DNA of 64,000 nt from Burkholderiales bacterium. Lineage in GTDB: Bacteria > Pseudomonadota > Gammaproteobacteria > Burkholderiales > SG8-41. Below the pieces are notes generated by a model. It was not told the origin of the DNA. It searched no databases and saw nothing but the letters and a program-made list of their open reading frames with translations. This document shows positions 4,751-62,463 of the stretch, in pieces. Within the stretch, counting starts at the first letter, position 1. Every line of letters begins with the position of its first letter. The position numbers and the translations under genes were made by a program. The stretch is taken from assembly GCA_022841375.1 (NCBI GenBank), contig JALHRQ010000009.1, forward strand, positions 62,001 to 126,000, read 5' to 3'.

Positions 4751-6490
4751 ATGAGCTCCCGCTTTTCCCTGCTGCCCACGCGCTGCAGCCTGGTGTGCGT
4801 AGTGCTGCTCTGCGTTATCCCGTTTCTGCAGCCGTATCACCACAATCCGTTGACTTCTTTTCATTCAGAGTGGATCGCCATCCTGTTTGGACTGGGCGTC
4901 ATGACGGTATTGCTGGGTCGAAGGACGTGGACACCCCTGGAAGTGCCATGGGCTGCGTTATCGCCACTGGCACTTGCGTTGCTGGTGCTGGTGCATGGGT
5001 TGCTGGGCTGGTCACCGTATTTCGGTTCGGCACTGACGGCGACGTTGTATCTGATCTGGGCGTCGTTGCTGGTCGTCGCAGCCCGGGCACTGGTGCGCGA
5101 ATGCGGCAGTACGCTGGTCTTTGAAACCATCGCGGCCGGCATTGCTGCAGGTGCCCTGCTGAGCGCATTGATCGGGGTGATCCAGCATCTGCGCATGCCG
5201 ACGCTGCTTGATTTTCTGGTTGCACGGACTACGAGTTCGGCGATTTTCGGCAATCTGGCGCAAGCCAATCATTTTGCTTCCTATACGACCCTGGGCTTGC
5301 TGTCCCTGGCCTACCTGCACGTTCGCAGGAGGGTTGGATGGATGATTGTTGCGCTCGGCGCCGCACCAATGCTGTTTGTACTCGGGGTGTCGGGTTCGCG
5401 GGCCGCAGCGCTTTATCTGCTGGCGGCATTCAGCACCGCCGCCTGGCTGCAGTGGCGTGTTGCCGAACCCGCCGTAAGACGTCTTTTACTAATCGCGGGG
5501 CTTTATCTCGGGATTTATTTTCTGCTGCAAATCGCGGTTGATGCCGGCCTGTTTCGTTCCGCTTCAGGTAATACGGTAACGGCTTTCGAGAGACTGTCGA
5601 CTGGAACAGCGAGCCTTTATGAGCGGGTGCGTCTGTGGCAGACCGCTTGGGCGATGATGCTGGCCCAACCCTGGTTCGGTACGGGTTGGGGCACTTTTGC
5701 GACCGGACATTTTGGAATGGCGGCCGAGCTTTACCCCGGTGGGGGCTACCAGCTTTATCACCACGCCCACAATATTGTGTCCCACCTGGTCGCGGAAACC
5801 GGGCTGGCGGGGCTGGCCTGTTTCGTTCTGCCGCTGCTGATGAGCTTACGGCGGGGTGGTGTGTCTGCCGTTCCGCGCATCGAGCTTTGGCTGCTGCTCG
5901 CGCTGGGGGCGGTGATTGGCTTGCACAGCCTGCTCGAATATCCGCTTTGGTACGCGTATTTCCTGGGAATTGCCGCGCTGCTGCTTGGGGTTGCGCCGCT
6001 GCGGGTTCATGCAATCCCGTTTTCACCGTACTGGCGATGGATTGTTCTCGCCGTGCTGTGCTTCGGGCTATTCAATCTGTACACTTTATTGACCGACTAT
6101 CGCCGCTTTGAGGACTTGTTCCGGGCACGATCCCCACAAGCGGATCGTCACCAACTGCCCGGGTTGATGATGCGGCTGCACCAGAATCCGCTGCTGCGAC
6201 CTTATGTCGAGGTGGCCACGGCAATTCCGATGACACTGGATGAGGCGAGTCTCGACCGTCAGTTGTATGTCAACACCCGGGCCTTGCGTTACGTGCCCGA
6301 AGCTACGTTGGTTTATCGACAGGTGTTGTTGCTGACGCTGGCAGACCGCCTGCCCGAGGCGAAACGGCTGCTGGTGCAGGCCCGACAGGGCTACCCTGCA
6401 GCACCGGCGGAGTTCGAGCGCGATCTTCAGCGTCTCGCGCGGGAGCAGCCGGCACGCTTCCGGCCTCTGCTAGAATCCGGGATTCGTTAG
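4751..6490 (+). CDS. PglL/Wzy-family O-oligosaccharyltransferase (O-antigen ligase-like)
   Basis: Polytopic inner-membrane protein of 579 aa with about ten or more hydrophobic segments, a large periplasmic loop and a soluble C-terminal tail (about 470-579). Characteristic features are NLAQANHFA near residue 170, matching the NxxQxNHxA region of PglL-type ligases, and HAHNIVSHLVAETG, the conserved histidine motif of the Wzy_C domain. PglL enzymes transfer lipid-linked glycans to serine residues of pilins and other periplasmic proteins; WaaL and Wzy relatives act on lipid A core or O-antigen. The MSHA pilin genes start 3.4 kb downstream, so pilin glycosylation is plausible but unproven. Confidence 0.8.
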   Translation: MSSRFSLLPTRCSLVCVVLLCVIPFLQPYHHNPLTSFHSEWIAILFGLGVMTVLLGRRTWTPLEVPWAALSPLALALLVLVHGLLGWSPYFGSALTATLYLIWASLLVVAARALVRECGSTLVFETIAAGIAAGALLSALIGVIQHLRMPTLLDFLVARTTSSAIFGNLAQANHFASYTTLGLLSLAYLHVRRRVGWMIVALGAAPMLFVLGVSGSRAAALYLLAAFSTAAWLQWRVAEPAVRRLLLIAGLYLGIYFLLQIAVDAGLFRSASGNTVTAFERLSTGTASLYERVRLWQTAWAMMLAQPWFGTGWGTFATGHFGMAAELYPGGGYQLYHHAHNIVSHLVAETGLAGLACFVLPLLMSLRRGGVSAVPRIELWLLLALGAVIGLHSLLEYPLWYAYFLGIAALLLGVAPLRVHAIPFSPYWRWIVLAVLCFGLFNLYTLLTDYRRFEDLFRARSPQADRHQLPGLMMRLHQNPLLRPYVEVATAIPMTLDEASLDRQLYVNTRALRYVPEATLVYRQVLLLTLADRLPEAKRLLVQARQGYPAAPAEFERDLQRLAREQPARFRPLLESGIR

Positions 6491-6529
6491 TTCCTGCCGC
6501 ACCCGGCACTCCCCTTGAATCGAGTTTTG

Positions 6530-6964
6530 ATGGAATCTTTTTTCGTTTATCTGCAAAAAAGCCCCTACAACATGATGTTGTTCGGCGGCGCTCTGGCCAG
6601 CGGTGCTTTGCTGCTGTGGCCACTGGTGATGCGGCCGTTCCGCGCCGGCAGCGAAGTGACCGCCTTTGCAGCGGTGCAACTGATCAACCGCAAGGATGCG
6701 GTGGTGATCGATGTGCGCGACATCGGCGAGTACGAGGCCGGGCATATTGCCGGCGCGAAGCATGTGCCGGAAGCGCAACTCGCCGAGCGCATCAAGGAAC
6801 TGGATAAGTTCAAGGATAAACCCGTCATTCTGGCCTGCCGCACCGGCACCCGTTCGGGTTCCGCGGTCAAAATCCTCCGCAGCAACGGATTTACCGAAGC
6901 TGTGCATCTGGGTGGCGGTATTGTTGCCTGGGAACAGGCCGGCATGCCTTTGCAGAAAAAATAA
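6530..6964 (+). CDS. Membrane-anchored rhodanese-domain protein
   Basis: Protein of 144 aa with one N-terminal membrane helix (about 13-31) and a single rhodanese domain. The active-site cysteine lies in ACRTGTRSG, a six-residue loop (CRTGTR) typical of sulfurtransferases. The ATG at 6530 is preferred to the in-frame TTG at 6515; neither has a strong ribosome site. It lies directly upstream of grxC-secB-gpsA, a frequent proteobacterial arrangement (the YibN position). It probably handles sulfane sulfur or thiol chemistry at the membrane. Confidence 0.88.
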   Translation: MESFFVYLQKSPYNMMLFGGALASGALLLWPLVMRPFRAGSEVTAFAAVQLINRKDAVVIDVRDIGEYEAGHIAGAKHVPEAQLAERIKELDKFKDKPVILACRTGTRSGSAVKILRSNGFTEAVHLGGGIVAWEQAGMPLQKK

Positions 6965-6983
6965 CCTTCAGGATGCGATAGCC

Positions 6984-7241
6984 ATGGCCAAGGTCCGCAT
7001 GTATTCCACTCAGGTATGCCCGTATTGCCAGATGGCAGAACGACTGCTGCGCAGCAAGGGTGTCACCGAACTGGAAAAAATATTGATCGACAAGGATCCG
7101 GTGCAGCGCGCGGAGATGATGGAAAAAACCGGCCGCCGCACTGTTCCGCAAATCTACATCGGCGAGACTCATGTCGGCGGTTACGACGACCTGACCGCCC
7201 TTGATCGCGCCGGCGGGCTTGATCCGCTGCTCGCCGCCTGA
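6984..7241 (+). CDS. grxC: Glutaredoxin 3
   Basis: Dithiol glutaredoxin of 85 aa with the CPYC active site at residues 12-15, TVPQIYI with the cis-proline, and the glutathione-binding GGYDDL motif. It reduces disulfides and mixed glutathione disulfides in the cytoplasm. The ATG at 6984 is preceded by AGGA about 10 nt upstream. Second gene of the rhodanese-grxC-secB-SH3-gpsA run. Confidence 0.95.
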   Translation: MAKVRMYSTQVCPYCQMAERLLRSKGVTELEKILIDKDPVQRAEMMEKTGRRTVPQIYIGETHVGGYDDLTALDRAGGLDPLLAA

Positions 7242-7260: not shown

Positions 7261-7746
7261 ATGAGTGAATCGCCGCAACCGCAGCAAGCCCCGCAGCCCC
7301 AGTTCAGCATTGAAAAGATTTACCTCAAGGATCTGTCGCTGGAGATTCCCAATGCGCCGCAGATTTTTCTGCAGGTCGAAAACCCGCAGATCGAGATCAG
7401 CGTACACAACGGTGCCGCCCTGCTCGATCAGGCGGGACTGTATGAGGCCGTGCTGACGGTGACGGTGACCGCCAAAGCAGCGGAAAAAACCGTGTTCCTG
7501 GTGGAAGTCGCGCAGGCCGGCATTTTCCGTATCCTCAATCTGCCGCCGGCGGAAATTGACGCCGTGCTCGGCGTGTTGTGCCCGAGCACGCTGCTGCCTT
7601 ATGCCCGCGAGACCGTGGCGAGCCTGCTGGTGCGCGCGGGATTCCCGCCAGTGGTGCTGCAGCACATGAGCTTTGATGCTGCGTATCAGGAACGCCTGCG
7701 CCAGTTGCAGCAGGCGCAGGCGGCGCCTGCCGGAACCATCAACTGA
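7261..7746 (+). CDS. secB: Protein-export chaperone SecB
   Basis: Tetrameric cytosolic chaperone of 161 aa that keeps preproteins unfolded and delivers them to SecA. The body from FSIEKIYLKDLSLEIPNAP through the LPPAEIDAVLGVLCPSTLLPY region is typical of SecB, as is the C-terminal helix with a Gln/Ala-rich tail. The ATG at 7261 follows grxC by 19 nt. Good-quality family match over the full length. Confidence 0.96.
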   Translation: MSESPQPQQAPQPQFSIEKIYLKDLSLEIPNAPQIFLQVENPQIEISVHNGAALLDQAGLYEAVLTVTVTAKAAEKTVFLVEVAQAGIFRILNLPPAEIDAVLGVLCPSTLLPYARETVASLLVRAGFPPVVLQHMSFDAAYQERLRQLQQAQAAPAGTIN

Positions 7747-9873: not shown

Positions 9874-11580
9874 ATGGGCCGTCCTGAAAAAATCCGCCTC
9901 GGCGAAATTCTCGTGCAGCAGAAACTGCTCACCGAGGAACAACTGAAGGCTGCTCTCGACGAGCAGAAAAAAACCGGGCGCCGTCTCGGCCGCGTGTTCA
10001 TCGAACGCGGCTTCATCACTGAAGAGCAGATCTCCAAGGCGCTGGCCCGCCAGCTGGGCGCCGATTACATCGACCTGAAGCATTACAACATCAAGCGCGA
10101 TGTGGTGGCGCGGCTGCCCGAAACCCAGGCGCGCCGCTTCCGCGCGATGGTGCTCGAGGATCGCGGCGAAGCTTACCTCGTCGGCATGGCCGATCCCACG
10201 GATCTGGCGGCGTACGATGACGTTGCGCGCATTCTCAAACGCGATATCGAACTGGCGGTGGTCACCGAGACTGAACTGCTGCGCACCATCGACCGCAGCT
10301 ACCGCCGCACCGAGGAGATCACCGGACTCGCGCAGGAGCTGCAGGCCGAGATGGGCGATTCCGGCGCTGTTGATTTCGGCTCCCTGGCGATGACCCCTGG
10401 GCTGGAAGAGGCGCCGGTCGTCAAGCTTCTGCAGACCGTGTTCGAGGACGCCACCCAGGCACGCGCCTCCGACATCCATATCGAGCCGCAGGAGCGGCGC
10501 CTGCAGATCCGTTTCCGCATCGACGGCGTGCTCCATCTGCAGACCGAAGCCGACAGCAAAATTGCTTCCGCCGTGGTGCTGCGCCTGAAACTGATGTCGG
10601 GACTGGATATCGCCGAGAAACGCATGCCGCAGGACGGTCGTTTCAACGTCAAGATCCGCAATGCTGCGGTGGACGTGCGGATTTCGACGATGCCGACCCA
10701 GTACGGCGAATCCATCGTCATGCGCCTGCTCAACCAGGGCAGCGGAATTCTCGGGCTGGAGAACATCGGCATGCCCGAAGTGATGCTTAAAAAGGTGCGC
10801 GAGATCATCCATCGCCCCAGCGGCATGGTGCTGGTGACCGGGCCGACCGGTAGCGGCAAAACCACCACCTTGTATGCCGCGCTCAACGAACTCAATACCG
10901 CGGAACGCAAGATCATTACCGTCGAGGACCCGGTTGAATACCGGCTGCCCGGCATCAATCAGGTCCAGGTCAACGAAAAAATTGAACTGACCTTTGATCG
11001 CGTGCTGCGCTCGGCGCTGCGTCAGGATCCTGACGTGGTGCTGGTTGGCGAAATGCGCGATGAACAAACTGTCGAAACCGGTCTGCGCGCATCGATGACC
11101 GGCCACATGGTGTTTTCGACTCTGCATACCAATGATGCCGTCAGCACCCCGGTGCGCCTGCTCGACATGGGGGCACCGCGCTATATGGTTGCGCTGTCGC
11201 TGCAGCTGGTGGTGGCGCAACGTTTGCTGCGGGTGATCTGCGACAGCTGCAGCGAGGATTACCAGCCGCTGCCGTCCGAACACGAATGGCTGCGCAGCGA
11301 ATTGGGCGACCAGGTCGATCAGCATGTTTATAAACACGGCCGCGGTTGCTCGTATTGCAACGGCACTGGTTTTGTCGGGCGCACCGGCGTCTACGAGATG
11401 CTGGAAATGACCAAGCCGGTGGTAGAGGCCGCCAACCAGGATGACGTGCGCGCATTCATGAAAATCGCCCGCGAGCAGATCGGCCGCGCCACCCTGCGAC
11501 ATCACGCTGCTCAGCTTGCTGCGGCGGGGCGCACTACGCCCAACGAGGCGATGCGCATCAGCAGTCAACTCGACGAGTAA
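9874..11580 (+). CDS. mshE: MSHA pilus assembly ATPase MshE
   Basis: Cytoplasmic hexameric PilB/GspE-type ATPase of 568 aa powering pilus extension. The N-terminal MshEN-type domain (about 1-150, the c-di-GMP-binding region in Vibrio MshE) is followed by the ATPase core. Walker A GPTGSGKT is near 323-330 and Walker B VVLVGEMRDE near 388. A zinc tetracysteine is formed by CDSC (about 455) and CSYC (about 492). The start is set at the ATG encoding MGRPEKIRLGE, matching the family N terminus; an in-frame TTG lies 15 nt upstream. The 178-nt spacer upstream is AT-rich at 9751-9768. First gene of the locus; no MshH homologue is seen. Confidence 0.95.
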   Translation: MGRPEKIRLGEILVQQKLLTEEQLKAALDEQKKTGRRLGRVFIERGFITEEQISKALARQLGADYIDLKHYNIKRDVVARLPETQARRFRAMVLEDRGEAYLVGMADPTDLAAYDDVARILKRDIELAVVTETELLRTIDRSYRRTEEITGLAQELQAEMGDSGAVDFGSLAMTPGLEEAPVVKLLQTVFEDATQARASDIHIEPQERRLQIRFRIDGVLHLQTEADSKIASAVVLRLKLMSGLDIAEKRMPQDGRFNVKIRNAAVDVRISTMPTQYGESIVMRLLNQGSGILGLENIGMPEVMLKKVREIIHRPSGMVLVTGPTGSGKTTTLYAALNELNTAERKIITVEDPVEYRLPGINQVQVNEKIELTFDRVLRSALRQDPDVVLVGEMRDEQTVETGLRASMTGHMVFSTLHTNDAVSTPVRLLDMGAPRYMVALSLQLVVAQRLLRVICDSCSEDYQPLPSEHEWLRSELGDQVDQHVYKHGRGCSYCNGTGFVGRTGVYEMLEMTKPVVEAANQDDVRAFMKIAREQIGRATLRHHAAQLAAAGRTTPNEAMRISSQLDE

Positions 11581-11586
11581 TCAGGC

Positions 11587-12816
11587 ATGCCATTTTTTGC
11601 CTACAAGGGACGTGACGGCCGGGGCGAATCGGTAAAGGGCATCCTGGAAGGCGCAGACAGCGGAGCGGTGGCGGGGCAGCTGTCCGGTCTGGGCATCGTG
11701 CCACTGGATATCCAGCCCTCAGCGCCACCACGCGAAAAAAACGAACTGTTCGAGCGTTTTTTCGGCAAGGAAAAGGTTTCCCACACCGAAGTGCTGCTCT
11801 ACAGCCGGCAGATGTTCACGCTGCTCAAGGCCGGCGTGCCGATCATGGGTGCGCTGAAGGGGCTGGAGGATTCGACGCAGAGCAAGCGTTTTTCCGGCGT
11901 GGTGCGTGATGTGCGCGAAAGTCTCGACACCGGGCGCGAATTGTCGGCTTCTCTGGCGCGGCATCCGGATGTGTTTTCACAGTTCTATACCTCGATGGTC
12001 GGCGTCGGTGAACAGACCGGACGCCTGGAGGAAGTTTTTTTGCGGCTGTTCGAGCATCTTGAATTCGAAAAATTCATGCGCGAACAGATCAAGGCGGCGC
12101 TGCGCTACCCGTCGTTCGTACTGGCGACGATGGGTGTTGCGATCGTGGTCATCAACATCTTCGTCATTCCGGCGTTCGCCAAAGTCTACAAGGGGTTCAA
12201 GACCGAACTGCCCTTGATGACCAAGGTGCTGATCGGATTCTCCAATTTCATGGCCGAGAACTGGTATTTTCTGCTCGCCGTGGCTATTGGTCTGGTGGTT
12301 GCATTTCGCTGGTGGACCGGCACTTCGCTGGGCCGCATGAAATGGGACCGCATGAAACTGCGCATCCCTATTGCCGGGCCGATCGTGCTTAAGGCCACGC
12401 TGGCGCGGTTTGCACGCAGTTTTTCGATGGCGTTTCGCAGCGGCGTGCCGGTTACCCATGCGCTGGCGATGGTCGCCGGCACGGTTGACAACGTTTTTGT
12501 TGCCGACCGCATCAGCAGGATGCGCGAGGGTGTGGAGCGCGGCGAATCGATCCTGCGCACGGCGCGCGAAGCGCAGGTGTTCACCCCGGTGGTTCTGCAG
12601 ATGATTGCGGTCGGCGAGGAATCCGGCGCGCTGGACGACATGACTTCGGAAATCGCCGATCTCTACCAGCGCGAAGTCGAATACGAGATCAAGAATCTCA
12701 GCGCGCAGATCGAACCCGTACTGATCATTACGCTTGGCGTGATGGTACTGATCCTGGCGCTGGGCGTGTTCCTGCCGATCTGGGATCTCGGCAACGCGGC
12801 CCTCGGCAAGAAATAA
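11587..12816 (+). CDS. mshG: MSHA inner-membrane platform protein MshG
   Basis: GspF/PilC-type polytopic platform protein of 409 aa. Two T2SSF domains are visible, about 68-190 and 270-395, each ending in strongly hydrophobic helices. The FAYKGRD start is typical of the family. It couples MshE to the pilin pool in the inner membrane. It starts 6 nt after mshE, so the two are co-translated. Confidence 0.95.
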   Translation: MPFFAYKGRDGRGESVKGILEGADSGAVAGQLSGLGIVPLDIQPSAPPREKNELFERFFGKEKVSHTEVLLYSRQMFTLLKAGVPIMGALKGLEDSTQSKRFSGVVRDVRESLDTGRELSASLARHPDVFSQFYTSMVGVGEQTGRLEEVFLRLFEHLEFEKFMREQIKAALRYPSFVLATMGVAIVVINIFVIPAFAKVYKGFKTELPLMTKVLIGFSNFMAENWYFLLAVAIGLVVAFRWWTGTSLGRMKWDRMKLRIPIAGPIVLKATLARFARSFSMAFRSGVPVTHALAMVAGTVDNVFVADRISRMREGVERGESILRTAREAQVFTPVVLQMIAVGEESGALDDMTSEIADLYQREVEYEIKNLSAQIEPVLIITLGVMVLILALGVFLPIWDLGNAALGKK

Positions 12817-13370: not shown

Positions 13371-13883
13371 ATGTGCTTCGAATTTCGTGACAAAGATCAC
13401 ATCAGCGCAAGAGGCCGGGTTTCAGGGTTTACGCTGATTGAACTAATCGTCGTCATCATTATTCTGTCAATACTCGCGGCAACCGCGCTGCCGCGATTCG
13501 CCAATCTGCAGGTGCAGGCGCGTGTCGCCAAACTGAATGGCGCCTTGGGCGCCGTCAAGGGCGCATCGGCGCTGTCCCATGCTGGATGCCTGGCATCAAC
13601 ACCGCAGTGTTCGGCGACATTGTTGATGGAAGGCGTCAACGTGACCATGGTGCATGCCTATCCCACGGCGGACGCCGCGGGCATCATTACCGCGGCCGGT
13701 TTGAACGTGGGCCCGACTTCGCCGGATGGTTACAACATCCAGGGCGGCGGCGCGGCAGCCGGTACGCCGGTGACTGTCATGGTGCTGGGCAACGATCCAC
13801 CCAACTGCAGCTTTACCTACACTTCACCGATTGCGATCAACCAATCGCCGGTGTTCGGAATTCTGGTGACTTCAGGCTGTTAG
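13371..13883 (+). CDS. mshB: MSHA type IV pilin MshB
   Basis: Prepilin-like protein of 170 aa. The 19-residue leader ends in SG, and FTLIELIVVIIILSILAATALPRF begins the mature helix (shown in parts: FTLIE, then a long hydrophobic run). Glu5 is present. Four cysteines occur in the mature part, including a pair near the C terminus that could form the D-loop disulfide. Named from position before mshA. A TATTAT hexamer at 13358-13363, just upstream of AGGGAC, could belong to an internal promoter. Confidence 0.82.
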   Translation: MCFEFRDKDHISARGRVSGFTLIELIVVIIILSILAATALPRFANLQVQARVAKLNGALGAVKGASALSHAGCLASTPQCSATLLMEGVNVTMVHAYPTADAAGIITAAGLNVGPTSPDGYNIQGGGAAAGTPVTVMVLGNDPPNCSFTYTSPIAINQSPVFGILVTSGC

Positions 13884-13950
13884 CCTCATCCTGAATGGAA
13901 TTCAAGGTATTTTCACAACGGCAAATTCTGGTTTGCTTACGGAGGTTCAA

Positions 13951-14397
13951 ATGAAACAGCAACAAGGTTTTACGATTATCGAGCTGATCGTCGTCATCGT
14001 CGTGCTGGGCATACTGGCCGCGACTGCGATTCCGCGTTTTGCCAACATCGGCACGGAAGCGCGCATTGCGTCGATGCGTGGCGTTGAGGGCAGCATGCTG
14101 GCTGCCAAGGAAATCGTCCGTGCCAAATGGTATGCGGCCGGATCGACATCGCTGTCGACCGTGACGACCGCTGATGGCACCTCTGTTGTGGTGACTACCG
14201 GGACTGGTGCTACCGCTGGACTGCCGACGGCTGCCGGAATGGTCAGTGCGCTGAGCGTAAGCGGCAACATTACCTGTGCCGTCTCCGGCGGAAACGCCGT
14301 CTGTAATCCCACAGGTTTCGCTGCCTGTACGATGACCTATGACCCAACTAACGGAGTTGTGACGGCAGCTGTAGCTACGGCAGACTGCGGCGGCTAA
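13951..14397 (+). CDS. mshA: MSHA major pilin MshA
   Basis: Prepilin of 148 aa with a very short leader, MKQQQG, cleaved before FTIIELIVVIVVLGILAATA, then a small, Ser/Thr/Gly/Ala-rich globular domain with a C-terminal disulfide loop of three or four cysteines. The ATG at 13951 follows a strong GGAGG by 6 nt, the best ribosome site in the locus. A terminator-like hairpin follows. Both fit a major subunit made in excess over minor pilins. Low-complexity Ser/Thr stretches are possible glycosylation targets. Confidence 0.88.
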   Translation: MKQQQGFTIIELIVVIVVLGILAATAIPRFANIGTEARIASMRGVEGSMLAAKEIVRAKWYAAGSTSLSTVTTADGTSVVVTTGTGATAGLPTAAGMVSALSVSGNITCAVSGGNAVCNPTGFAACTMTYDPTNGVVTAAVATADCGG

Positions 14398-14440
14398 GCG
14401 TAACCGCGCGATCGGCCCGCATCCGCGGGTGACTGCGCAG

Positions 14441-14479
14441 CGGGTGAGGGTAGCCAACGGCAACCTTCACCCGTTTTCA
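14441..14479 (+). terminator. Attenuator-like hairpin between mshA and mshC
   Basis: An 11-bp stem (14441-14451 with 14463-14473, one G-U pair) is followed by TTTTCATTT. Inside the loop a GCC/GGC pairing extends it. It lies between the major pilin and the minor pilin genes, so a partial terminator that lowers downstream transcription is likely. Confidence 0.6.
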
Positions 14480-14490
14480 TTTGTGGAGCC

Positions 14491-14952
14491 ATGATCAAAC
14501 GCATCGGCAAACGCGCCCGGGGATTCACCGCCATCGAACTGGTCGTGACCATCGTCGTCATCGGCGTGCTGGCGGCGTTTGCGATTCCGCGCTTCCTCGG
14601 CCGGGATACATTCGATTCCCGCGGTTTTTACGACAAGGCGGTCGCCGTGGTTCGGCTGGCGCAGAAGACCGCCGTGGGCTGGCGGCGCGATGTCCATGTC
14701 TGCGTGACGGCGACGCAGGTGACTGCCGGTGCTGCGGCCGGATGCGCTACGCCGCTGACCAATCCGGTGAACGGTGGCCCGGTCACTGAAACCGCCCCTC
14801 CGGGAGTAACGCTGAATACTGTTACCTTCAGCTTTGACCGTCTCGGCCGGCCGAGTGTGGCGAGCACCATTAACTTTTCGACGACGATTCCGGGCGACAT
14901 CACGCGCCAGATCGGCATTGCGGCTGAGACCGGTTATGTCACTGCGAACTGA
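14491..14952 (+). CDS. mshC: MSHA minor pilin MshC
   Basis: Prepilin of 153 aa with leader MIKRIGKRARG and class III signal FTAIELVVTIVVIGVLAAFA, then the IPRF turn shared with the other pilins. Two cysteines (in VCVT and GCAT) may form a disulfide. The 17-nt overlap with mshD and the order C-D-O-P follow the Vibrio locus. It probably forms part of the pilus tip or initiation complex. Confidence 0.85.
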   Translation: MIKRIGKRARGFTAIELVVTIVVIGVLAAFAIPRFLGRDTFDSRGFYDKAVAVVRLAQKTAVGWRRDVHVCVTATQVTAGAAAGCATPLTNPVNGGPVTETAPPGVTLNTVTFSFDRLGRPSVASTINFSTTIPGDITRQIGIAAETGYVTAN

Positions 14953-15550
14953 GCCTCGAACCCTGCTGCGGCGATATGTCCAGCGCGGCGCCTCGCTGAT
15001 CGAACTGGTCATGTTCATCGTGGTGATCGGTGCGGGCCTGGCCGGCATCATCGGCATCTGGCAAACCACAGCTCAGGGCAGTGCCGATCCGCTGATCCAG
15101 AAGCAGGCGCTGGCGATTGCCGAGGCTTATCTGGAAGAAGCGCTGGCGGCGCCTTTCACCTACTGCGACCCCGACGATGCCCATGCCGCGACCGCAGAGT
15201 CCACCGGCGCGGTGAATCCGGCGGATACGACCCGCTGCGCGACAACCCTCGAAGCCATTGGCGCCGAAGTCGGCGAAACGCGCGGCAGCGGCACCACGCC
15301 TTACGACAACGTCAATGACTACAGCAGTCTGGCGACGGCTGCGCCGGCGTCCATCGACGGCACGGCGATCGGCGGGCTGTCGTCTTATCAGGTATCCATC
15401 GCGGTGGTCGGGGAAGCCCTGACCGCCAGCGCGGTGACGGTGCCTTCAGCGGCCAGCCTGCGGGCAACGATAACCGTCACCGGCCCCGGCAGCACCACGG
15501 TCGTGCTCGACGGCTATCGCACCCGTTACGCGCCGAACGCCCTGCCATGA
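14936..15550 (+). CDS. mshD: MSHA minor pilin MshD
   Basis: Prepilin of 204 aa. The class III signal is RGASLIELVMFIVVIGAG, with Ala instead of Phe at mature position 1 and Glu5 retained. A longer reading frame upstream is ignored because the ATG at 14936 gives a normal leader and a short overlap with mshC. The globular region has three cysteines (YCDP and RCAT among them). The stop overlaps the mshO start (ATGA). Confidence 0.83.
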   Translation: MSLRTEPRTLLRRYVQRGASLIELVMFIVVIGAGLAGIIGIWQTTAQGSADPLIQKQALAIAEAYLEEALAAPFTYCDPDDAHAATAESTGAVNPADTTRCATTLEAIGAEVGETRGSGTTPYDNVNDYSSLATAAPASIDGTAIGGLSSYQVSIAVVGEALTASAVTVPSAASLRATITVTGPGSTTVVLDGYRTRYAPNALP

Positions 15551-53930: not shown

Positions 53931-53973
53931 GTTGGTGAATGCTATTCTTTTTAAATATTTCAAGGAGGAATCT

Positions 53974-54768
53974 GTGGATTATTCAAGCTATAAGCATCTC
54001 GACATTCAACGCAACGGCCGGATTCTGACTTTAAAAATAAATCGGCCTCCGATGAATCCGATCCACTTTGATCTCCATAACGAATTTTCGCGGATTTTCT
54101 ACGATGTGCAGGTCGATCACGAATCCGATGTGATTGTTTTGACCGGCGCAGGAAATGTGTTTTCCGCGGGCGGTGACATTCCGATGATGCAGAGGCGCAT
54201 TGATGATCCGGAGCTCTTTAATCGCAAGAATCTGGAGATGAAAAAAATGATCTTCGGCTTGCTGGATCTTGAGAAGCCGATCATTGCCCGCGTCAACGGT
54301 GACTGCATTGGACTTGGGGCGACCCTGGCTTTGCTGTGCGACATCATCATTTCAGTCGATGACGCCCGCTTTGGTGATCCACACGTGAAAATGGGATATG
54401 TGGCCGGCGATGGCGGAGCGGTGATTTGGCCGCAACTCGTGGGCTTCGCACGGGCAAAAGAGTATTTGCTGACTGGCGACATGCTTTCCGCGGTGGAGGC
54501 TGAGCGTATCGGGCTCATCAACCATGCAGTGCCGCGCGACAAATTTGATGAGAAGGTAAACGCACTTACCGCCAAACTGGCTGCCGGATCCACCAAGGCC
54601 ATCAAGTGGACCAAGACTTGCACAAACATCCCGCTTCGACAACTGGCCCACTCGATCATGGATGCTTCTCTTGCCTATGAGGCCATCACCAATATGGGTG
54701 CTGACCACCAGGAGGCCGTGACGGCTTTCCAGGAAAAGCGGAAACCTAAATTTACGGGCGGTTATTGA
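53974..54768 (+). CDS. Enoyl-CoA hydratase/isomerase (crotonase) family protein
   Basis: Crotonase-fold protein of 264 aa. The oxyanion-hole regions are NVFSAGGDI and GDCIGLGATLAL. At the two positions usually held by catalytic glutamates it has FGDPHVKMG (His) and VAGDGG (Asp), so it may not be a plain hydratase; this pattern recurs in a poorly characterised subfamily. GTG start at 53974 is set by AAGGAGGA 5 nt upstream. First gene of unit 2. Confidence 0.87.
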   Translation: MDYSSYKHLDIQRNGRILTLKINRPPMNPIHFDLHNEFSRIFYDVQVDHESDVIVLTGAGNVFSAGGDIPMMQRRIDDPELFNRKNLEMKKMIFGLLDLEKPIIARVNGDCIGLGATLALLCDIIISVDDARFGDPHVKMGYVAGDGGAVIWPQLVGFARAKEYLLTGDMLSAVEAERIGLINHAVPRDKFDEKVNALTAKLAAGSTKAIKWTKTCTNIPLRQLAHSIMDASLAYEAITNMGADHQEAVTAFQEKRKPKFTGGY

Positions 54769-54823: not shown

Positions 54824-56044
54824 ATGTCAAAAGCTCTCGAACACCTTCGCGTTCTCGATATGAGTCGCGTGCTTGCTGGCCCCTTTCTGGCGCAGAACCT
54901 CGCCGACTTTGGTGCTGACGTCATCAAGGTTGAGCGTCCTCATCACGGAGATGAGACGCGAACATTTCCTCCTTACCTCAAACGGGCCGACGGCACGCAA
55001 ACGGAGGACTCGGCTTACTATATGTCGATTAATCGGGGAAAACGGTCGGTCACGATCGATATATCCAAACCCCTGGGGCAGGATTTGATCAAACAGCTGG
55101 CGGCCCAGTCGGATGTGCTGATCGAGAACTACAAGGTTGGAGATTTGAAACGCTATGGCCTTGATTACGAAAGCATCAAGGCCGTTAAACCCGACATCGT
55201 TTACTGCTCGATTACCGGCTTCGGGCAAACCGGCCCGTACCGCAACCGGCCGGGGTATGACTATATTTTCCAGGCCATGAGCGGGCTTATGAGCATTACC
55301 GGCGAGCGTGATGATTTGCCGGGTGGCGGCCCGGCCAAGGTCGGGCTCGCGATCTGTGATGTGATCACGGGAATATATTCAAGTTTCGCAGTGATGGCGG
55401 CCTTGGCGTATCGTGACAAGAGTGGCGAAGGTCAGCACATTGACATGTCTCTTCTTGATGTCGCCATCGCAACGATTTCCCACATCAACATGAACTATCT
55501 GGTTGGGGGCATCGTTCCAAAGCGTATGGGTACCGCGCATCCGAGCATTGTTCCCTATCAGGTTTTTAATGCTGCTGACGGACAAATGGTTGTTGCGGTT
55601 GGAAACGATACCCAGTTTTCAAAGTTATGCCAGACCCTCGGATTGGTTGCGCTTCCTGCGGATGAGCGCTTCCGCACCAATGTGAGTCGCGTCAAGAATC
55701 GGGATGAACTGGTGCCGATTATTCAAGCGAAATTCCGGGAAAAACCTGTCGCTTACTGGATCGAAACGCTCACTGGAATTGGTGTTCCTTGCGGACCAAT
55801 CAACAACATCAAGCAGGTCTTTGATGATCCGCACATAAAATACCGGGGCATGCGGGTTGAGGTTGACCATCCGCGAGGTGGAAAGGTTTCGATGCTTGCC
55901 AATCCAGCACGCTTGTCAGTGACCCCGGCTTCATACGATAGAGTCCCTCCGCAGCTTGGCGAGCACACGCATGAAGTGCTGCGTAGCGTATTGAATCTCG
56001 ATGATCAGACGATCGAAGCGTTAACCTGCGCGGGAGTGATTTAG
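54824..56044 (+). CDS. Class III (CaiB/BaiF) CoA-transferase, copy 3
   Basis: Enzyme of 406 aa, more distant from the other two copies. LRVLDMSRVLAGPFLAQNLADFGADVIKVE forms the N-terminal region (ends LRVLDMSRV and VIKVE). The nucleophile Asp is in GQHIDMSLLDVA, and GYDYIFQAMSGLMSITG follows the formyl-CoA/succinyl-CoA transferase style. It could supply the CoA ester acted on by the crotonase encoded just upstream. Confidence 0.9.
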   Translation: MSKALEHLRVLDMSRVLAGPFLAQNLADFGADVIKVERPHHGDETRTFPPYLKRADGTQTEDSAYYMSINRGKRSVTIDISKPLGQDLIKQLAAQSDVLIENYKVGDLKRYGLDYESIKAVKPDIVYCSITGFGQTGPYRNRPGYDYIFQAMSGLMSITGERDDLPGGGPAKVGLAICDVITGIYSSFAVMAALAYRDKSGEGQHIDMSLLDVAIATISHINMNYLVGGIVPKRMGTAHPSIVPYQVFNAADGQMVVAVGNDTQFSKLCQTLGLVALPADERFRTNVSRVKNRDELVPIIQAKFREKPVAYWIETLTGIGVPCGPINNIKQVFDDPHIKYRGMRVEVDHPRGGKVSMLANPARLSVTPASYDRVPPQLGEHTHEVLRSVLNLDDQTIEALTCAGVI

Positions 56045-56211: not shown

Positions 56212-56754
56212 ATGAGCGATGAATTGTTACTGCTTGTTCCGGAGGCACCTGCTGCAGAGCCGGAGGCCGTAAGTGCCGGACAGCGCAAGCCTGACGTAAA
56301 TGCTTTGCGAATCGGCTTGCTGGATAACAGCAAGGCAAATGCCGATCATCTGCTGCGGATGCTGTCCGAACATGTCGCTGATGAGATGAGAGTCAAGTCA
56401 GTCACTTCGCTCCGTAAGGGCAGTGTCGCCATCCCTGCAACGGCTCAAGTGCTTGACCAATTGGCGCACGAGTCGGATCTCGTCCTCAGCGCCATGGCCG
56501 ATTGAGGGTCATGCACGTCGTGGAGTGTCCACGACATGTGTGAAATGCGTAAGCGCGGAGTTTCCGCAGCGGTTATTTGCTCGGAACCCTTCGTGAAGCT
56601 CGCAAAAACGCAGGCGAAAGTGTTTGGGGTGCCTGACCTCGCTTTAATTGTCATACCGCATCCTCTGGGTGGATTGGACATTGAAGGGGTCAAGGCCCGC
56701 GTTGAAGTGGCTAATCCACAATTGCTGTCTTTGATCAGGCAGATTTCCAGATGA
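56212..56754 (+). CDS. UGSC-family selenoprotein (in-frame TGA = selenocysteine)
   Basis: Protein of 180 aa if TGA at 56503-56505 is read as selenocysteine (Sec98). The frame is open on both sides, and the codons around it spell A-M-A-D-U-G-S-C-T-S-W, the UGSC motif of a known (seleno)protein family. The N-terminal LLDNSKANADHLL and C-terminal GVPDLALIVIPHPLGG segments agree with that family. Cys101 and Sec98 form a UxxC redox-like pair. A bSECIS hairpin follows the TGA. AAGGA precedes the ATG by 7 nt, and the true stop overlaps the next gene (ATGA). The biochemical function is unknown. Confidence 0.88.
56503..56535 (+). promoter_or_regulatory. Selenocysteine codon and bacterial SECIS hairpin
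   Basis: TGA at 56503-56505. GTCGTGGA (56517-56524) pairs perfectly with TCCACGAC (56528-56535) around a GTG loop. The loop begins 19 nt after the TGA, inside the 16-37 nt window known for bacterial SECIS elements, and opens with G as SelB recognition requires. The stem codes for Thr102 to Asp108 of the protein. Confidence 0.85.
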
Positions 56755-57899: not shown

Positions 57900-58877
57900 A
57901 TGAAACGGTTCAAAAAATCCCTGGTATTTGCATTTATTGGCTTAATTGCATTGCCTGTATTTGCACAGAACGCGGCCAAGGATTACCCAACAAAATCTGT
58001 GCGCTGGATAGTTACGTTCACACCCGGTGCATCCAACGATTTCGTGGCCCGATTAATGGCAGGCAAGCTGTCTGAACTGCTGGGGCAGCAATTCATTGTT
58101 GATAATCGGGGTGGTGCGGGCGGTCTGATCGGGGCCGAAACCGTTGCTATCGCGCAACCCGATGGATATACGCTGCTGTTTACCAACCCGGCCCCGAACA
58201 TCAATGCGCCTTTGATGGCAGCCAAGGCGCCCTACAGCCTTGATGATTTTTCTCCCATTATTTACTTCGGGTTCACACCACTAATTATTGCTGCACATCC
58301 CTCCTTTCCAGCCAAAAATCCCAAGGAATTAATCGCTTCGTTAAAAGCGAATCCGGGCAAATACACCTGGGGTTCATCCGGGAACGGAAGCAGCCTTCAC
58401 ATCGGTCTGGCCCTGTTTCAGGGTGCAACCGGCGTAAACGTGATTCACGTCCCCTACAAGGGCACAGCCCCTGCGCTTTTGGATTTGGTTAGCGGCCAGA
58501 TTCAGCTCATGCACACCACCAAGGTGTCTTCAGATGGCCAGGTTAAGTCCGGGCGCGTAAAAATTCTTGCGGTTGCAAGCGCAAAACGCAGTCAAGGGCT
58601 CCCGGATGTTCCGACTCTCTCTGAATATGGCATTAAGGACGCTGAAGCCGTAACTTGGTTTGGTATGGCCGCCCCTGCCAAAACGCCACGCGCTATTATC
58701 GACAAGCTCAATGCCGCTTCGAATAAGGTGCTTGCAATGCCTGATATAAAGAAGCGCCTTGAAGAAAATGACGTCGATATTCAAGGTGGAACACCCGAGG
58801 AATTCGGCCGTTTTATGAAAAAAGAAGCCGAGCGGCTTAATCAGCTCATTAAAGCGGGTGTCATCAAAAAGGGCTAA
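57900..58877 (+). CDS. Bug-family tripartite tricarboxylate receptor
   Basis: Exported receptor of 325 aa with a signal peptide ending VFAQ (residue 23). YPTKSVRWIVTFTPGASNDF and RGGAGGLIGAE match the Bug fold; HVPYKGTAPALLDLV is the mid-domain signature. AAGGAGGAG precedes the ATG. It lies after the 372-aa gene and has no own permease, so it may use the TctAB pair or serve signalling. Confidence 0.9.
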   Translation: MKRFKKSLVFAFIGLIALPVFAQNAAKDYPTKSVRWIVTFTPGASNDFVARLMAGKLSELLGQQFIVDNRGGAGGLIGAETVAIAQPDGYTLLFTNPAPNINAPLMAAKAPYSLDDFSPIIYFGFTPLIIAAHPSFPAKNPKELIASLKANPGKYTWGSSGNGSSLHIGLALFQGATGVNVIHVPYKGTAPALLDLVSGQIQLMHTTKVSSDGQVKSGRVKILAVASAKRSQGLPDVPTLSEYGIKDAEAVTWFGMAAPAKTPRAIIDKLNAASNKVLAMPDIKKRLEENDVDIQGGTPEEFGRFMKKEAERLNQLIKAGVIKKG

Positions 58878-58936: not shown

Positions 58937-60310
58937 ATGAAATTCCAAAATGCCCGGGATGGACTGGCTTATTTTGTAAGCAGGACGACCTATAAAAAAG
59001 TCAGCCCGGAAGCCATACATGCCTCAAAGCGCTTTTTGCTGGATTCTCTGGCATGCATTGCGGGTGGATGGAACGAACCTTCCGCGAGGATCGCTCGAGA
59101 GGTTTCGGAGGATCTGGGCGGATCAAAAGATGCCCATGTGTTGCTGACCACCAGGAAAACCTCCGTCGTAAATGCAACTCTCGCCAATGGCATTGCTTTG
59201 CGGGCATTGGACTTGATCGATATGTACCATTCTCTTGATCACGCCCATCCCTGCGAAATGACCATCCCGCCGGCCCTGGCCGTCGGACAAAAAATGCATT
59301 CCAGCGGCAAAGACGTATTGACCGCCATCGTGCTTGGTTATGAGATCTGCATGAAATTTGCGGAAATCACCGGGAATACCAGGAAAGGGTGGGCTGGCAC
59401 AGCAACATTAGGGCAATTCGCCACACCCCTTGTGGCTGGATATCTATTGCGGCTCAAGCAATCCCAGTTGGCCGAAGCGGTGTCAATTTCCGGCTCTCAC
59501 AACGTTTCCCTTGCCATTGCTTACAACCTTCCCATAAGCATGACAAAGGATGCCTTGAATACCTTTGCGGCTCAAAGTGGCGTCATGGCCGCATTGTTGG
59601 CCAAAAGAGGATTTACCGGGCCTGCAGGAATTCTGGAGGCGCCCGGTGGCCTGTGGCCACAACTGGAATCGAATGCTACGGTCGAGACCCTGCTTGAGGG
59701 TCTTGGTAAACCGTTTCGAATCACCAAGTGCGGCCTAAAAGATCACAAGTTTGCTGCCATTGCCTGGTCACACCCAGCCATTGAGGCTTTACTTAAACTT
59801 CGCGCGGAGCATGGCTTAACGCCCAAGAACGTGAAGGAGATCAAGGTACGAGCAACGCGTAAGGTGGCCACCCGCATTGGAGATAAGGCTGGGGCAAAGC
59901 TTAGCCCTCTGGATACTCAATTCAGTGGGCAGAATATTCTTGCAACAGCGTTGAAATACGGCGACCTTTTGCCGAAACGGCAGAAAATGTCCGCTGATGC
60001 CGATGTAAGGGCAATTTCGAAGATCGTCAGGATAGAGCACGACCCCGGTCTTGATCATCTTTATCCCGAGAAAATGCCTTCCATTGTCGAGGTGCTTACG
60101 GTGGATGGCAAACGACTCTCATGTCGCGTTGATTATCGCCGTGGCGATCCCAACAACCCGTTGTCAGATAAAGATATTGAAGAGAAGTTTATGGCATTGA
60201 CCGCCAAGCATTTGTCGAAAAGCACAGCCAAGAAAATATGCGGTTTGGTATGGGGGCTGGAGAACATGCGCGACATTAATGAGTTAACTACAAAATTTTC
60301 TAAGAATTAA
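58937..60310 (+). CDS. MmgE/PrpD-family protein
   Basis: Protein of 457 aa in the family of 2-methylcitrate dehydratase, cis-aconitate decarboxylase and iminodisuccinate epimerase. LDSLACIAGG near the N terminus, NGIALRALDLIDMYHS...HP and CGLKDHKFA..HPAIEA are the usual landmarks. It probably acts on a tricarboxylic or branched dicarboxylic acid; the exact reaction cannot be told from sequence. GAGGGTGAT upstream of the ATG. Confidence 0.87.
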   Translation: MKFQNARDGLAYFVSRTTYKKVSPEAIHASKRFLLDSLACIAGGWNEPSARIAREVSEDLGGSKDAHVLLTTRKTSVVNATLANGIALRALDLIDMYHSLDHAHPCEMTIPPALAVGQKMHSSGKDVLTAIVLGYEICMKFAEITGNTRKGWAGTATLGQFATPLVAGYLLRLKQSQLAEAVSISGSHNVSLAIAYNLPISMTKDALNTFAAQSGVMAALLAKRGFTGPAGILEAPGGLWPQLESNATVETLLEGLGKPFRITKCGLKDHKFAAIAWSHPAIEALLKLRAEHGLTPKNVKEIKVRATRKVATRIGDKAGAKLSPLDTQFSGQNILATALKYGDLLPKRQKMSADADVRAISKIVRIEHDPGLDHLYPEKMPSIVEVLTVDGKRLSCRVDYRRGDPNNPLSDKDIEEKFMALTAKHLSKSTAKKICGLVWGLENMRDINELTTKFSKN

Positions 60311-60345
60311 ATCTTGCAAGTCAATCTTTCTCCGTGGAGGGAAGT

Positions 60346-61302
60346 GTGAAATTTCTTTTATTCGTAATTTCGTTTTTTGCATCGTACTCAGCGCTTGCGC
60401 AAAATTATCCAACACGCCCCGTCACTTTGGTCGTGCCGGCGCCAGCTGGTGGGCCAACGGATATTATTGGGCGACAGGCAGCCCATGTATTGACCGGCCA
60501 AATTTCTTACAACGTGATTGTTGAGAATCGCGGAGGTGCCGGTAACACACTGGGCACAGACTTTGTGGCTCGTGCCAAACCCGATGGATATACGCTGGTT
60601 GTAGGCAGTCCCAGTTCACATGCGATCGCCCCCAGCATTTATCCAAAGTTGCCCTATGATCCGGTCAAGGATTTCACGCCAATTATCATGTTAGTCACGG
60701 CGCCATTGGCACTGGTCACGCATCCATCAGTGCCGGCGAAAAACCTTAAGGAATTTATCGCTTTAGCCAAATCCAAACCCGGGCAATTGAATTTTGGTTC
60801 CGGTGGCAGTGGAACTACGTCCCATTTGACAGGTGAATACTTCAATCTGGCGGCTGGAACAAAGATAGTGCACGTTCCGTACAAGGGCAGTGGCCCCGCG
60901 ACGACAGATCTGATGACGGGGCAGATTCAGATGATGTTTATTGGCGTTCATTCCTCTATCCCCTTGATGCAAGCTAAAAAGCTACGGGGATTGGGGGTAA
61001 CCAGCACCAATCGCTCACCCCTGATTAAAGATCTGCCCACCATGGACGAAGCGGGCCTTAAAGGTTTTGTTGTCAACACCTGGTACGGAATCCTGGGGCC
61101 TGCCGGTCTCCCAAAAAATATTGTTACGACATTAAACGACGCCTTCACAAAAGGCATGCGTGATCCGGCGATGCGCCAGCGATTTGCGGATCAGGGTTTT
61201 GATATTACGACTGGGACCCCGGAACAATTCGGTAAAGACCTGGCTCGCGAAGTCGAAACCTGGGGTAAGGTTGTTAAACAGGCTGGCGCAAAAGCGGACT
61301 AA
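60346..61302 (+). CDS. Bug-family tripartite tricarboxylate receptor
   Basis: Exported receptor of 318 aa with a signal peptide ending ALAQ (about residue 19). YPTRPVTLVVPAPAGGPTD, RGGAGNTLG, PDGYTLVVGSPSSHAIAP and HVPYKGSGPATTDLMTGQ mark the fold. The GTG start at 60346 is chosen because GGAGGGA lies about 4-5 nt upstream. Fourth Bug receptor in the island. Confidence 0.9.
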   Translation: MKFLLFVISFFASYSALAQNYPTRPVTLVVPAPAGGPTDIIGRQAAHVLTGQISYNVIVENRGGAGNTLGTDFVARAKPDGYTLVVGSPSSHAIAPSIYPKLPYDPVKDFTPIIMLVTAPLALVTHPSVPAKNLKEFIALAKSKPGQLNFGSGGSGTTSHLTGEYFNLAAGTKIVHVPYKGSGPATTDLMTGQIQMMFIGVHSSIPLMQAKKLRGLGVTSTNRSPLIKDLPTMDEAGLKGFVVNTWYGILGPAGLPKNIVTTLNDAFTKGMRDPAMRQRFADQGFDITTGTPEQFGKDLAREVETWGKVVKQAGAKAD

Positions 61303-61332: not shown

Positions 61333-62463
61333 ATGAAAATTACTGAAGTCAAAGGCATCGCTCTTTCTTTCAAGCTGGAAAATGCTCCGCGTCGGGGCAG
61401 TGGACAACCGGTGAAGAAAGATATGGTTATTGTTCGGGTAAAGACGGAGGACGGAATAGTCGGATATGGGGAGGCGCATCATGCGCTTGCACCCACAGTT
61501 GTCGCGGACATCGTTAATTACAACCTGGCGCCGATAGTGGTCGGCCAGGACGCAATGGCGGTTGAGGAGATTTGGCAGAAGATTTACGTAAAGCAGGGCC
61601 AAACCCATGGACCCGGGTGGTCATTTTTCAAGGCCCTCTCCGGCGTTGATATCGCGCTTTGGGATGCGCGCGGCAAGGCTTTGAACCAGCCTGTATACAG
61701 CCTGCTCGGCGGGGTTCGTAAAAAAATCCGCGCCTATGCCGGCGGTGTCTGCCTTGGGTATCAACCGCCACCCCAACTTTTGGAAGAAGCCCAGAAGTTT
61801 GTTGCTGCGGGCTGGACCGCTTTAAAGCTGCGGTTGGGGGATTCTGTCGAGCGGGATATCGAGAGAGTTAAATATATTCGCAAACATCTACCGGCCGCGA
61901 TCGACATCATGGTTGATGTGAACACCCGCTACACGTATCTGGATGCGCAGCGCGTAATACCTACGCTGGAAGAGTGCGGAATTTTTTGGCTGGAGGAGCC
62001 ATTTACACCGGATAATCTTGCCGATTATGCGCGCATCAATGCCTCGACCCGGATTCCATTAGCCGGCGGTGAGAATCACTTTACCCGCTACCAGGCTCGG
62101 GAGTTACTGGAACGATCTGCAGTAGATATTGTGCAACCGGACCCCTGCAAATCCGGGGGCATCACGGAGTGCAAGAGAATCGCGGACCTTGCTTCGGCCT
62201 TCCGTCGCTCGTTTGCTCCGCATACCGGAATGAGTGGGATTGATGGCGCGGCTTGTTTGCACCTGCTTTGCTCCACATCCAACGCACTCGTCTATGAGAG
62301 CGACTGCGCCGCCTTAAATCCATTCCGGGACGAATTAGTACATGGAGGCCCGACTCTGGTGGATGGCTTTGTCGAACCCAACGAAAAACCGGGGTTGGGT
62401 GTAGAAGTTGACGAGTCACTGTTTTCTAAACTGCCGGGTGTTCCAGGTCCTTGCTACATTTGA
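61333..62463 (+). CDS. Enolase-superfamily (mandelate racemase/muconate lactonizing) protein
   Basis: Protein of 376 aa with capping domain (about 1-125) and TIM barrel. ALKLRLG carries the K-x-R pair at the second strand. Metal ligands are Asp in MVDVNTRYT, Glu in WLEEPF and Glu in GGENHF. HTGMSG carries the general-base His of the mandelate-racemase subgroup. It may dehydrate or racemise an acid. Last gene of unit 2. Confidence 0.88.
   Translation: MKITEVKGIALSFKLENAPRRGSGQPVKKDMVIVRVKTEDGIVGYGEAHHALAPTVVADIVNYNLAPIVVGQDAMAVEEIWQKIYVKQGQTHGPGWSFFKALSGVDIALWDARGKALNQPVYSLLGGVRKKIRAYAGGVCLGYQPPPQLLEEAQKFVAAGWTALKLRLGDSVERDIERVKYIRKHLPAAIDIMVDVNTRYTYLDAQRVIPTLEECGIFWLEEPFTPDNLADYARINASTRIPLAGGENHFTRYQARELLERSAVDIVQPDPCKSGGITECKRIADLASAFRRSFAPHTGMSGIDGAACLHLLCSTSNALVYESDCAALNPFRDELVHGGPTLVDGFVEPNEKPGLGVEVDESLFSKLPGVPGPCYI

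Follow-up and report, generated by a model that had tools for sequence, protein, structure and literature searches.

In a 64,000-nucleotide stretch of a Burkholderiales genome, referred to here as the window, a reading frame is interrupted by a TGA codon and continues beyond it in the same phase, which raises two questions: whether this TGA is read as selenocysteine (Sec), and what the resulting protein does. The frame opens with an ATG at 56212, with AAGGA 9 nt 5' of it, and runs through 97 sense codons to the TGA at codon 98 (56503–56505), after which 82 more codons lead to a TGA stop at 56752–56754 that overlaps the start codon of the following gene (ATG at 56751, reading ATGA). The coordinates of this arrangement agree exactly with those of a preliminary description made from the letters alone, and translation of the frame places the first TGA within a U-G-S-C motif, as that description had read it, in the surroundings LSAMAD-U-G-S-C-TSWSVHD. 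The read-through product passes the curated cut-offs of both family models, NF041046 of NCBIfam (138.5 bits, cut-off 125) and PF24696 of Pfam (153.8 bits, cut-off 25), and it resembles this family in sequence, length, UGSC motif and Sec codon. By these matches the window gene is a further member of the known UGSC family, as had been proposed. The family was also said to be known yet uncharacterised, and the one-line descriptions of the two entries indeed name neither a function nor a partner. According to the 2008 survey, UGSC proteins were among the most abundant selenoproteins of aquatic metagenomes, with 255 in the GOS set, and were the selenoprotein family used most frequently in non-marine samples (PMC2398784); a 2026 review places them in a group with largely uncharacterised functions (PMC13188914). 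The features of the locus are collected in Table 1.

Table 1. Features of the UGSC locus in the window.
Feature	Position	Strand	Basis or remark
Enoyl-CoA hydratase/isomerase family, upstream neighbour	53932..54768	+	PF00378, 171.7 bits
CoA-transferase family III, upstream neighbour	54824..56044	+	PF02515, 435.2 bits
UGSC-family selenoprotein, 180 aa with Sec98, motif at residues 98-101	56212..56754	+	frame and profile matches
TGA as predicted selenocysteine codon (Sec98)	56503..56505	+	relatives with Cys or TAG; genome with selB and tRNA-Sec
bSECIS-like hairpin, 8-bp stem, loop GTG	56517..56535	+	pairing statistics and covariation
Partner protein, 372 aa	56751..57869	+	start codon overlaps the selenoprotein stop (ATGA); found next to UGSC or fused with it
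TctC solute receptor, downstream neighbour	57900..58877	+	PF03401, 247.6 bits
MmgE/PrpD family protein	58937..60310	+	PF03972 and PF19305
TctC solute receptor	60334..61302	+	PF03401, 254.3 bits
Enolase-superfamily protein, dehydratase-like	61333..62463	+	PF13378, 223.3 bits

Mechanical ORF calling halts at the TGA and, as anticipated for a standard gene caller, splits the gene; termination at this point is also what a genuine stop codon would give, with the downstream half a separate or decayed frame. The sequence beyond the TGA, however, argues against such a reading. In a comparison with 10 homologues, two of them paralogues from the source genome, 48–54 of the 82 residues after the TGA are identical, next to 44–55 of 91–96 residues before it, and the nucleotide substitutions lie mostly at third codon positions; the downstream part is coding and is conserved at least as well as the upstream part. 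All 11 UGSC matches in the source genome contain exactly one in-frame TGA, in every case at the UGSC motif. Nor do the homologues all end at this codon. Cysteine stands at the Sec site (CGSC) in four loci (L132, L139, L145 and L182), of which L145 is a haloarchaeon by its record title, and a fused copy in L077 reads CGTS. In Blastococcus (L151), the site is occupied by TAG (7675–7677), followed by the same hairpin with the loop GTC, and the tRNA-Sec of this organism (L198) has the anticodon CUA. UAG-coded UGSC proteins in the family of Blastococcus have already been published (PMC5330540).

The source genome (4.08 Mb, 99% complete) possesses the machinery for Sec insertion. In profile searches, selB (421.5 bits), tRNA-Sec (75.9 bits, anticodon TCA) and selD (419.3 bits) all score above their cut-offs, and the ORF adjoining selB resembles selA, as recognised by eye only. 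This selD gene (L047, G000:C15:11228-12157) is, with its one in-frame TGA, a further selenoprotein gene. The presence of selB follows the codon at the site: it was above the cut-off in all five tested genomes with a stop codon there and in none of the four with CGSC. One of the latter, the L132 genome, contains a sub-threshold match (204.9 bits against a cut-off of 242.25, in a 652-aa frame; G491:C616:5763-6827) that is possibly a divergent SelB or a relic. Among 100 relatives searched at an E-value of 1e-60, selB was found in 58 of the 63 genomes with UGSC and in 9 of the 37 others (Fisher p 3e-12, with relatedness left in); the five UGSC genomes without a selB match are 72–91% complete.

Immediately downstream of the TGA, an RNA element of the expected kind is present. 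The arms of the hairpin, GTCGTGGA at 56517–56524 and TCCACGAC at 56528–56535, form 8 of 8 pairs around the loop GTG (56525–56527); the first stem base lies 12 nt past the TGA and 19 nt separate the TGA from the loop, so the perfect 8-bp hairpin of the preliminary description holds by coordinates. Bacterial SECIS elements carry an apical loop that starts with G and lies 16–37 nt downstream of the TGA, and the window hairpin, with its 8-bp stem, GTG loop and 19-nt gap, falls within this rule. Taken alone, the window gene provides modest evidence, as 528 of 20,000 random synonymous recodings also form all 8 pairs. The family is more telling. In one fixed register, 135 Sec-containing relatives form on average 7.27 of 8 pairs, compared with 4.77 under a synonymous null that ignores relatedness (sd 0.12, maximum 5.24 over 500 rounds), and slid registers give 1.5–3.9 pairs on average. 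At least 7 pairs are formed in 120 of the 135 relatives and fewer than 6 in eight.

The pairs also covary. In 57 distinct rows, 93.9% of the cells are paired, six of the eight pairs have changed on both sides, and none of 500 shuffles reached the observed covariation score. The DNA alignment used here comprised 58 of 64 chosen sequences plus the window and was thus selected favourably: the six omitted sequences (L131:11850, L058, L140:4828, L172:16060, L076:12310 and L059) form at most 5 pairs each, and two of them, L058 and L059, are copies from the source genome, with 5 and 2 pairs of 8, respectively. Four correctly placed Cys rows keep 7 (L145), 7 (L132), 6 (L139) and 6 (L077) of the 8 pairs, so part of the pairing may reflect the encoded peptide or a recent change from Sec to Cys. 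When the 48-nt region was folded by minimum free energy and compared with synonymous shuffles, the signal was noisy (mean z -2.1 for the 135 Sec genes and -1.1 for five Cys rows, with p<0.05 in 54% and 60% of them, respectively); the five Cys rows included L182 at a wrong motif, its true site being CGSC, and the fixed-register pair count replaced this comparison. On computational grounds we conclude that a bSECIS hairpin assists the decoding of the UGA as Sec, and that the locus almost certainly encodes a selenoprotein. Given the single TGA at one motif in all 11 copies, its replacement by Cys or TAG in relatives, the covarying hairpin, the conserved downstream coding sequence and the presence of selB, tRNA-Sec and selD, we reject the reading of the TGA as a real stop, the chance of which we regard as negligible.

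The UGSC family is strongly expanded in the source organism and some of its relatives. The 11 copies in the source genome are divergent, with a median identity of 26%, and 10 of them have their nearest relative in another genome rather than among their own paralogues (three of these by a margin of 0.05 or less), the eleventh being tied; these values mark them as old, distinct paralogues. A relative, G021, has 58 UGSC matches in a 5.7-Mb draft genome, and five other relatives that were recounted have 40, 32, 30, 21 and 19; these are counts from draft genomes, which strain mixing could inflate. At the lower end, some relatives carry only 1 or 2 copies. UGSC occurs in 63 of the 100 relatives, including all 60 genomes of the source organism's family; of 398 genomes sampled evenly across the phylum, just 5 have it, the source genome included. 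The largest whole selenoproteomes given in the 2026 review comprise 57 and 63 genes (PMC13188914). If the UGSC counts hold, a single family would by itself roughly equal the largest known selenoproteomes in size.

The most constant neighbour of these genes is the gene that follows directly in the window, which encodes a protein without a match in Pfam or NCBIfam; among 50 relatives of this partner, no Pfam family matches more than one member. In the source genome, the partner lies beside all 11 UGSC genes. Among 40 short loci selected through UGSC, a partner match was found within the 1.5-kb flanks in 39, and the one miss is at a contig end. The longer loci contain 121 UGSC hits. A partner follows directly in 62 of these cases, 36 times with the two genes overlapping by 4 bp; in 38 UGSC and partner share a single fused frame, in 15 the partner comes first, immediately upstream of UGSC, and for 6 no partner lies within 700 bases. 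Loci L110–L189 were chosen via the partner, so the pairing in them is partly by construction. The six distant hits include the front half of the L151 gene, which its TAG divides so that it counts as two of the 121, and a hit truncated where the L131 stretch ends. Distances among UGSC proteins and among their partners correlate with r 0.89 over 130 pairs (Mantel), a value that includes shared ancestry. It follows by computation that the UGSC gene adjoins, overlaps or is fused to a gene of one partner family, and the two form, with high probability, a two-part unit. A fusion of UGSC to an unknown domain was noted in the 2008 survey (PMC2398784), and this Unknown_1 domain is probably the partner described here.

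Within the partner family, Asp35, Arg153 and Glu187 are invariant in both partner alignments that were made. Cys86 is present in 50 of 50 sequences of one alignment and absent from two members of the other; its candidacy as a second active-site thiol was dropped, as it is Ala in L077:10960 and Gly in L059. Alignment A2 (UGSC) took in 48 of 85 relatives and alignment A3 (partner) 50 of 94. By record titles, the best 80 of at least 585 loci with a partner belong to Proteobacteria, Rokubacteria, Chloroflexi, Blastococcus, Bacillus, Neobacillus, Nitrospinae and Natrialba. Cultured hosts include Natrialba asiatica, with a Cys version, and Bacillus dakarensis, with a fused Sec version. In five loci (L150, L154, L164, L165 and L185), with the titles Rhodospirillaceae, Reyranella, Vineibacter and Acetobacteraceae, a second and often shorter partner gene stands directly behind the first, and the partner may come in two forms. 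No relative of the partner or of GrdB was confirmed in viral contigs.

On the side of the selenoprotein, profile comparison revealed a relationship to GrdB of glycine/sarcosine/betaine reductase and PrdB of D-proline reductase, in each case the Sec-containing subunit. When 48 UGSC sequences were compared by hhalign with a reference set of nine GrdB/F/H and PrdB sequences, which included annotated sarcosine and betaine reductase genes and PrdB, the two profiles matched with an E-value of 1.6e-8 for a single comparison (probability 95.5), with Sec aligned on Sec and HPLG on HPLG. Masking of the four motif columns left a score of 46.2 (E 6.4e-6), and the unmasked score of 63.0 compares with at most 24.7 in 200 column-shuffled controls. 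Control profiles of the partner family and the Grd alpha subunit gave E-values of 0.32 and 0.086, and the three PrdB sequences alone still matched UGSC with 1.1e-4. As judged from these profiles, UGSC is very probably related to the Sec domain of GrdB and PrdB.

GrdB, GrdF and GrdH (PF07355) share with UGSC a strand, U-G-[ST]-C, a helix, an AGIP-type turn and the HPLG region. The third Cys of the U-x-x-C-x-x-C of GrdB is common to several UGSC relatives (e.g. L050, L051 and L056), whereas the window copy has Trp at this position, and the N-terminal half of GrdB is absent from UGSC. PrdB is, like UGSC, a short Sec subunit (U-G-T-C) paired with a larger subunit. In D-proline reductase, a pyruvoyl group is derived from a cleaved proprotein; the loci that supplied PrdB also contain prdA genes. 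The UGSC partner, compared with Grd alpha and GrdB/PrdB only, is not homologous to two Grd alpha subunits (probability 1.0%, E 0.051) nor to GrdB/PrdB, so that we discarded it as a GrdB half or a Grd alpha relative, and pyruvoyl chemistry is unsupported.

The full PF07355 domain has no match in the window selenoprotein, nor does it appear in the list of families matched by the 48 A2 sequences. Its match in L080 (G021:C148:4958-6007) stops at the codon before Sec; the Sec domain is thus unmodelled in the profile, which may explain why the link is invisible in Pfam. L080, from the relative with 58 UGSC matches, is a full-length GrdB-type selenoprotein (UGTC) and the only one in 61 genomes searched. 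In relatives we also noticed a second GrdB/PrdB-like selenoprotein family, of short proteins, which matches the last third of PF07355 and continues with P-V-U-P-x-C-T-C-A-V, present in all 13 sequences examined of 15 chosen (L081, L083–L087, L090, L092, L096, L099–L101 and L105). The source genome has no match to GrdB or to this second family. A search for GrdB at an E-value of 1e-40 in the 398 evenly drawn genomes of the phylum gave no match, but as the control genomes were also without one, this is no evidence of absence. Searches of the PDB by sequence with UGSC, the partner and GrdB returned no credible relative.

The predicted structure of UGSC bears on whether it could be a general thiol-redox or peroxide-reducing selenoprotein of thioredoxin-like fold, with the partner as an accessory. 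The U-x-x-C motif, a thioredoxin-reductase-like ORF beside selB (read by eye) and the thioredoxin-like fold guessed in the survey literature would suit such a role. The model of UGSC, computed with Cys in place of Sec, is nevertheless confident (mean pLDDT 94.7) and predicts a flavodoxin-like alpha/beta domain with the order strand-helix-strand-helix-strand-[Sec]-helix, in which Sec98 lies between strand 3 and the following helix. Among solved structures it comes closest to flavodiiron proteins, flavodoxins and other alpha/beta proteins, with TM-scores of about 0.5, and no thioredoxin is found in the 50 listed of 1813 PDB matches; we therefore rejected a thioredoxin fold for UGSC. Homology to GrdB/PrdB also speaks against the redox role, and so many divergent copies, every one paired with a partner of its own (11 here and 58 in G021), are unlike a general antioxidant, although some relatives have only 1 or 2. 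Taken together, these results make a general redox function unlikely.

We next consider what the surrounding genes say about the substrate. In the window, the pair starts a same-strand run of a TctC receptor, an MmgE/PrpD protein, a second TctC receptor and an enolase-superfamily protein, the last of which scores below the cut-offs of all 17 NCBIfam families listed for it. The preliminary description placed the gene inside a carboxylate-degradation unit and suggested that this context may reveal its role. The first part holds for the window copy, which sits by a CoA-transferase, a hydratase, TctC and MmgE/PrpD; the second holds only in part, as the neighbours of the 11 copies differ greatly and point to no one reaction. 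Within about 7 kb of the other copies in the source genome, on either strand, are genes for an FMN-dependent dehydrogenase, a lipoyl-dihydrolipoamide dehydrogenase, an aconitase and an HpcH aldolase, further for a glutamate-cysteine ligase, a peptidase C26, a ketopantoate-reductase-like protein, a CoA-ligase, an acyl-CoA dehydrogenase and a carboxyltransferase, and also unrelated ones (transposase, glycosyltransferase, DUF2189 and HTH). Of the 119 genes that directly adjoin on the same strand in the longer loci, 25 belong to a TctC cluster and 10 to a cluster of solute-binding proteins of SBP family 5, each cluster being named after one or a few of its members. Genomes of this kind are in any case rich in TctC genes. 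The common context is a solute receptor together with organic-acid catabolism, and no single reaction is singled out; constant across the copies are the next gene, the partner, on which the preliminary description made no comment, and the relation to GrdB/PrdB. In locus L064, a gene for a dihydrolipoamide dehydrogenase with its own lipoyl domain (10187-11950, minus strand) lies near a close paralogue of the window pair, and its product is a candidate dithiol donor.

The same neighbourhoods bear on the idea that the pair acts on inorganic or organometallic compounds of mercury, arsenic or selenium instead of carbon substrates. Selenols bind soft metals, and other selenoprotein families occur in metal pathways. 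Beside one UGSC/partner pair of the source genome, L061 encodes a 436-aa protein with LVIVD repeats (5821-7131, minus strand) that matches SBP56 marginally (35.1 bits, cut-off 34), which would agree with this idea. None of 26 neighbours (6 in the window and 20 of the paralogues) belongs to a metal-resistance Pfam family, however, and those that could be named are mostly solute receptors or carboxylate/CoA enzymes, so a role in metal chemistry seems very improbable.

The fold of the partner gives fewer clues. Its model is confident (pLDDT 95.2, pTM 0.94), and a Foldseek search of the PDB returned no match at an E-value of 0.001 or better, so the partner may represent a new fold. The best, insignificant matches are class I fumarate hydratases and cyclic amide hydrolases (E 2.3e-3, TM-score 0.25), too weak for us to accept kinship with class I fumarases. 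They would nonetheless fit a selenol-assisted lyase, hydrolase or dehydratase without net reduction, in which the large partner with its invariant Asp35, Arg153 and Glu187 is the catalytic body and the selenol activates the substrate or holds it covalently; hydratase-, dehydratase- and aconitase-type genes nearby agree with this. Apart from the weakness of the fold matches, such an enzyme is at odds with the kinship of the selenium side to reductases and with the retention of Sec or Cys together with Cys at +3 in most copies, which suits a redox cycle. We consider a lyase-type reaction doubtful, though a better prospect than general thiol redox. The exceptions to the paired residues are L077 (UGSS and CGTS) and L155, which has neither: in L155 (6044-6607), a UGSC-family protein fused to the partner reads EGGNPTA at the site and so lacks the selenol. 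In the L077 genome, the fused Cys (CGTS), UGSS and UGSC versions occur close together (13849-15393 and 12221-12673, both on the minus strand), and these Sec, Cys and Ser versions offer natural comparisons.

The explanation that we find best overall, with about an even chance of being right as a whole, is that UGSC and its partner form one selenol enzyme acting on imported organic acids. The partner would supply the binding site for a solute imported via a dedicated receptor, often TctC. In GrdB, a selenol attack that expels a leaving group has been proposed. By analogy, Sec98, placed where the helix behind strand 3 begins, would attack the carbon beside the activating group of the substrate and expel an amine or another heteroatom, and Cys101 of U-x-x-C would resolve the selenium intermediate, giving a reduced or cleaved product and an Se-S bond that a thioredoxin- or dihydrolipoyl-type reductant would reopen. 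The selenol attack, the resolution by Cys101 and the reduction by a dithiol are proposed because of the GrdB/PrdB analogy and the conserved U-x-x-C, and reductive cleavage by the selenol is accordingly put forward as tentative, at somewhat less than even chance. Separate paralogous pairs would handle separate substrates, a diversity suggested by the median identity of 26% among the 11 copies, by their closeness to copies in other genomes and by the TctC and SBP family 5 genes among the direct neighbours, and the window copy may act on a carboxylic acid that passes into the adjacent CoA-transferase, dehydratase and hydratase steps.

What was known before is the gene family; of interest here are its constant partner, its kinship to the glycine and proline reductases and the size of its expansion. 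The present analysis adds to the UGSC family the partner family, the GrdB/PrdB relation, a predicted fold and the copy numbers. In a full-text literature search, which was not exhaustive, we found no description of a UGSC–GrdB link, of the partner (bar the Unknown_1 fusion) or of the expansion. It is easy to overlook the proteins as well as their kinship, since gene callers stop at the TGA and the Pfam GRDB profile stops at Sec. The pair and the kinship make the chemistry of UGSC testable, and the receptor gene beside a pair may hint at its substrate. It is conceivable, though short of probable, that UGSC and its partner constitute an unrecognised modular class of selenium-dependent bond-cleaving enzymes, which would exist in substrate-specific versions for many imported organic acids.
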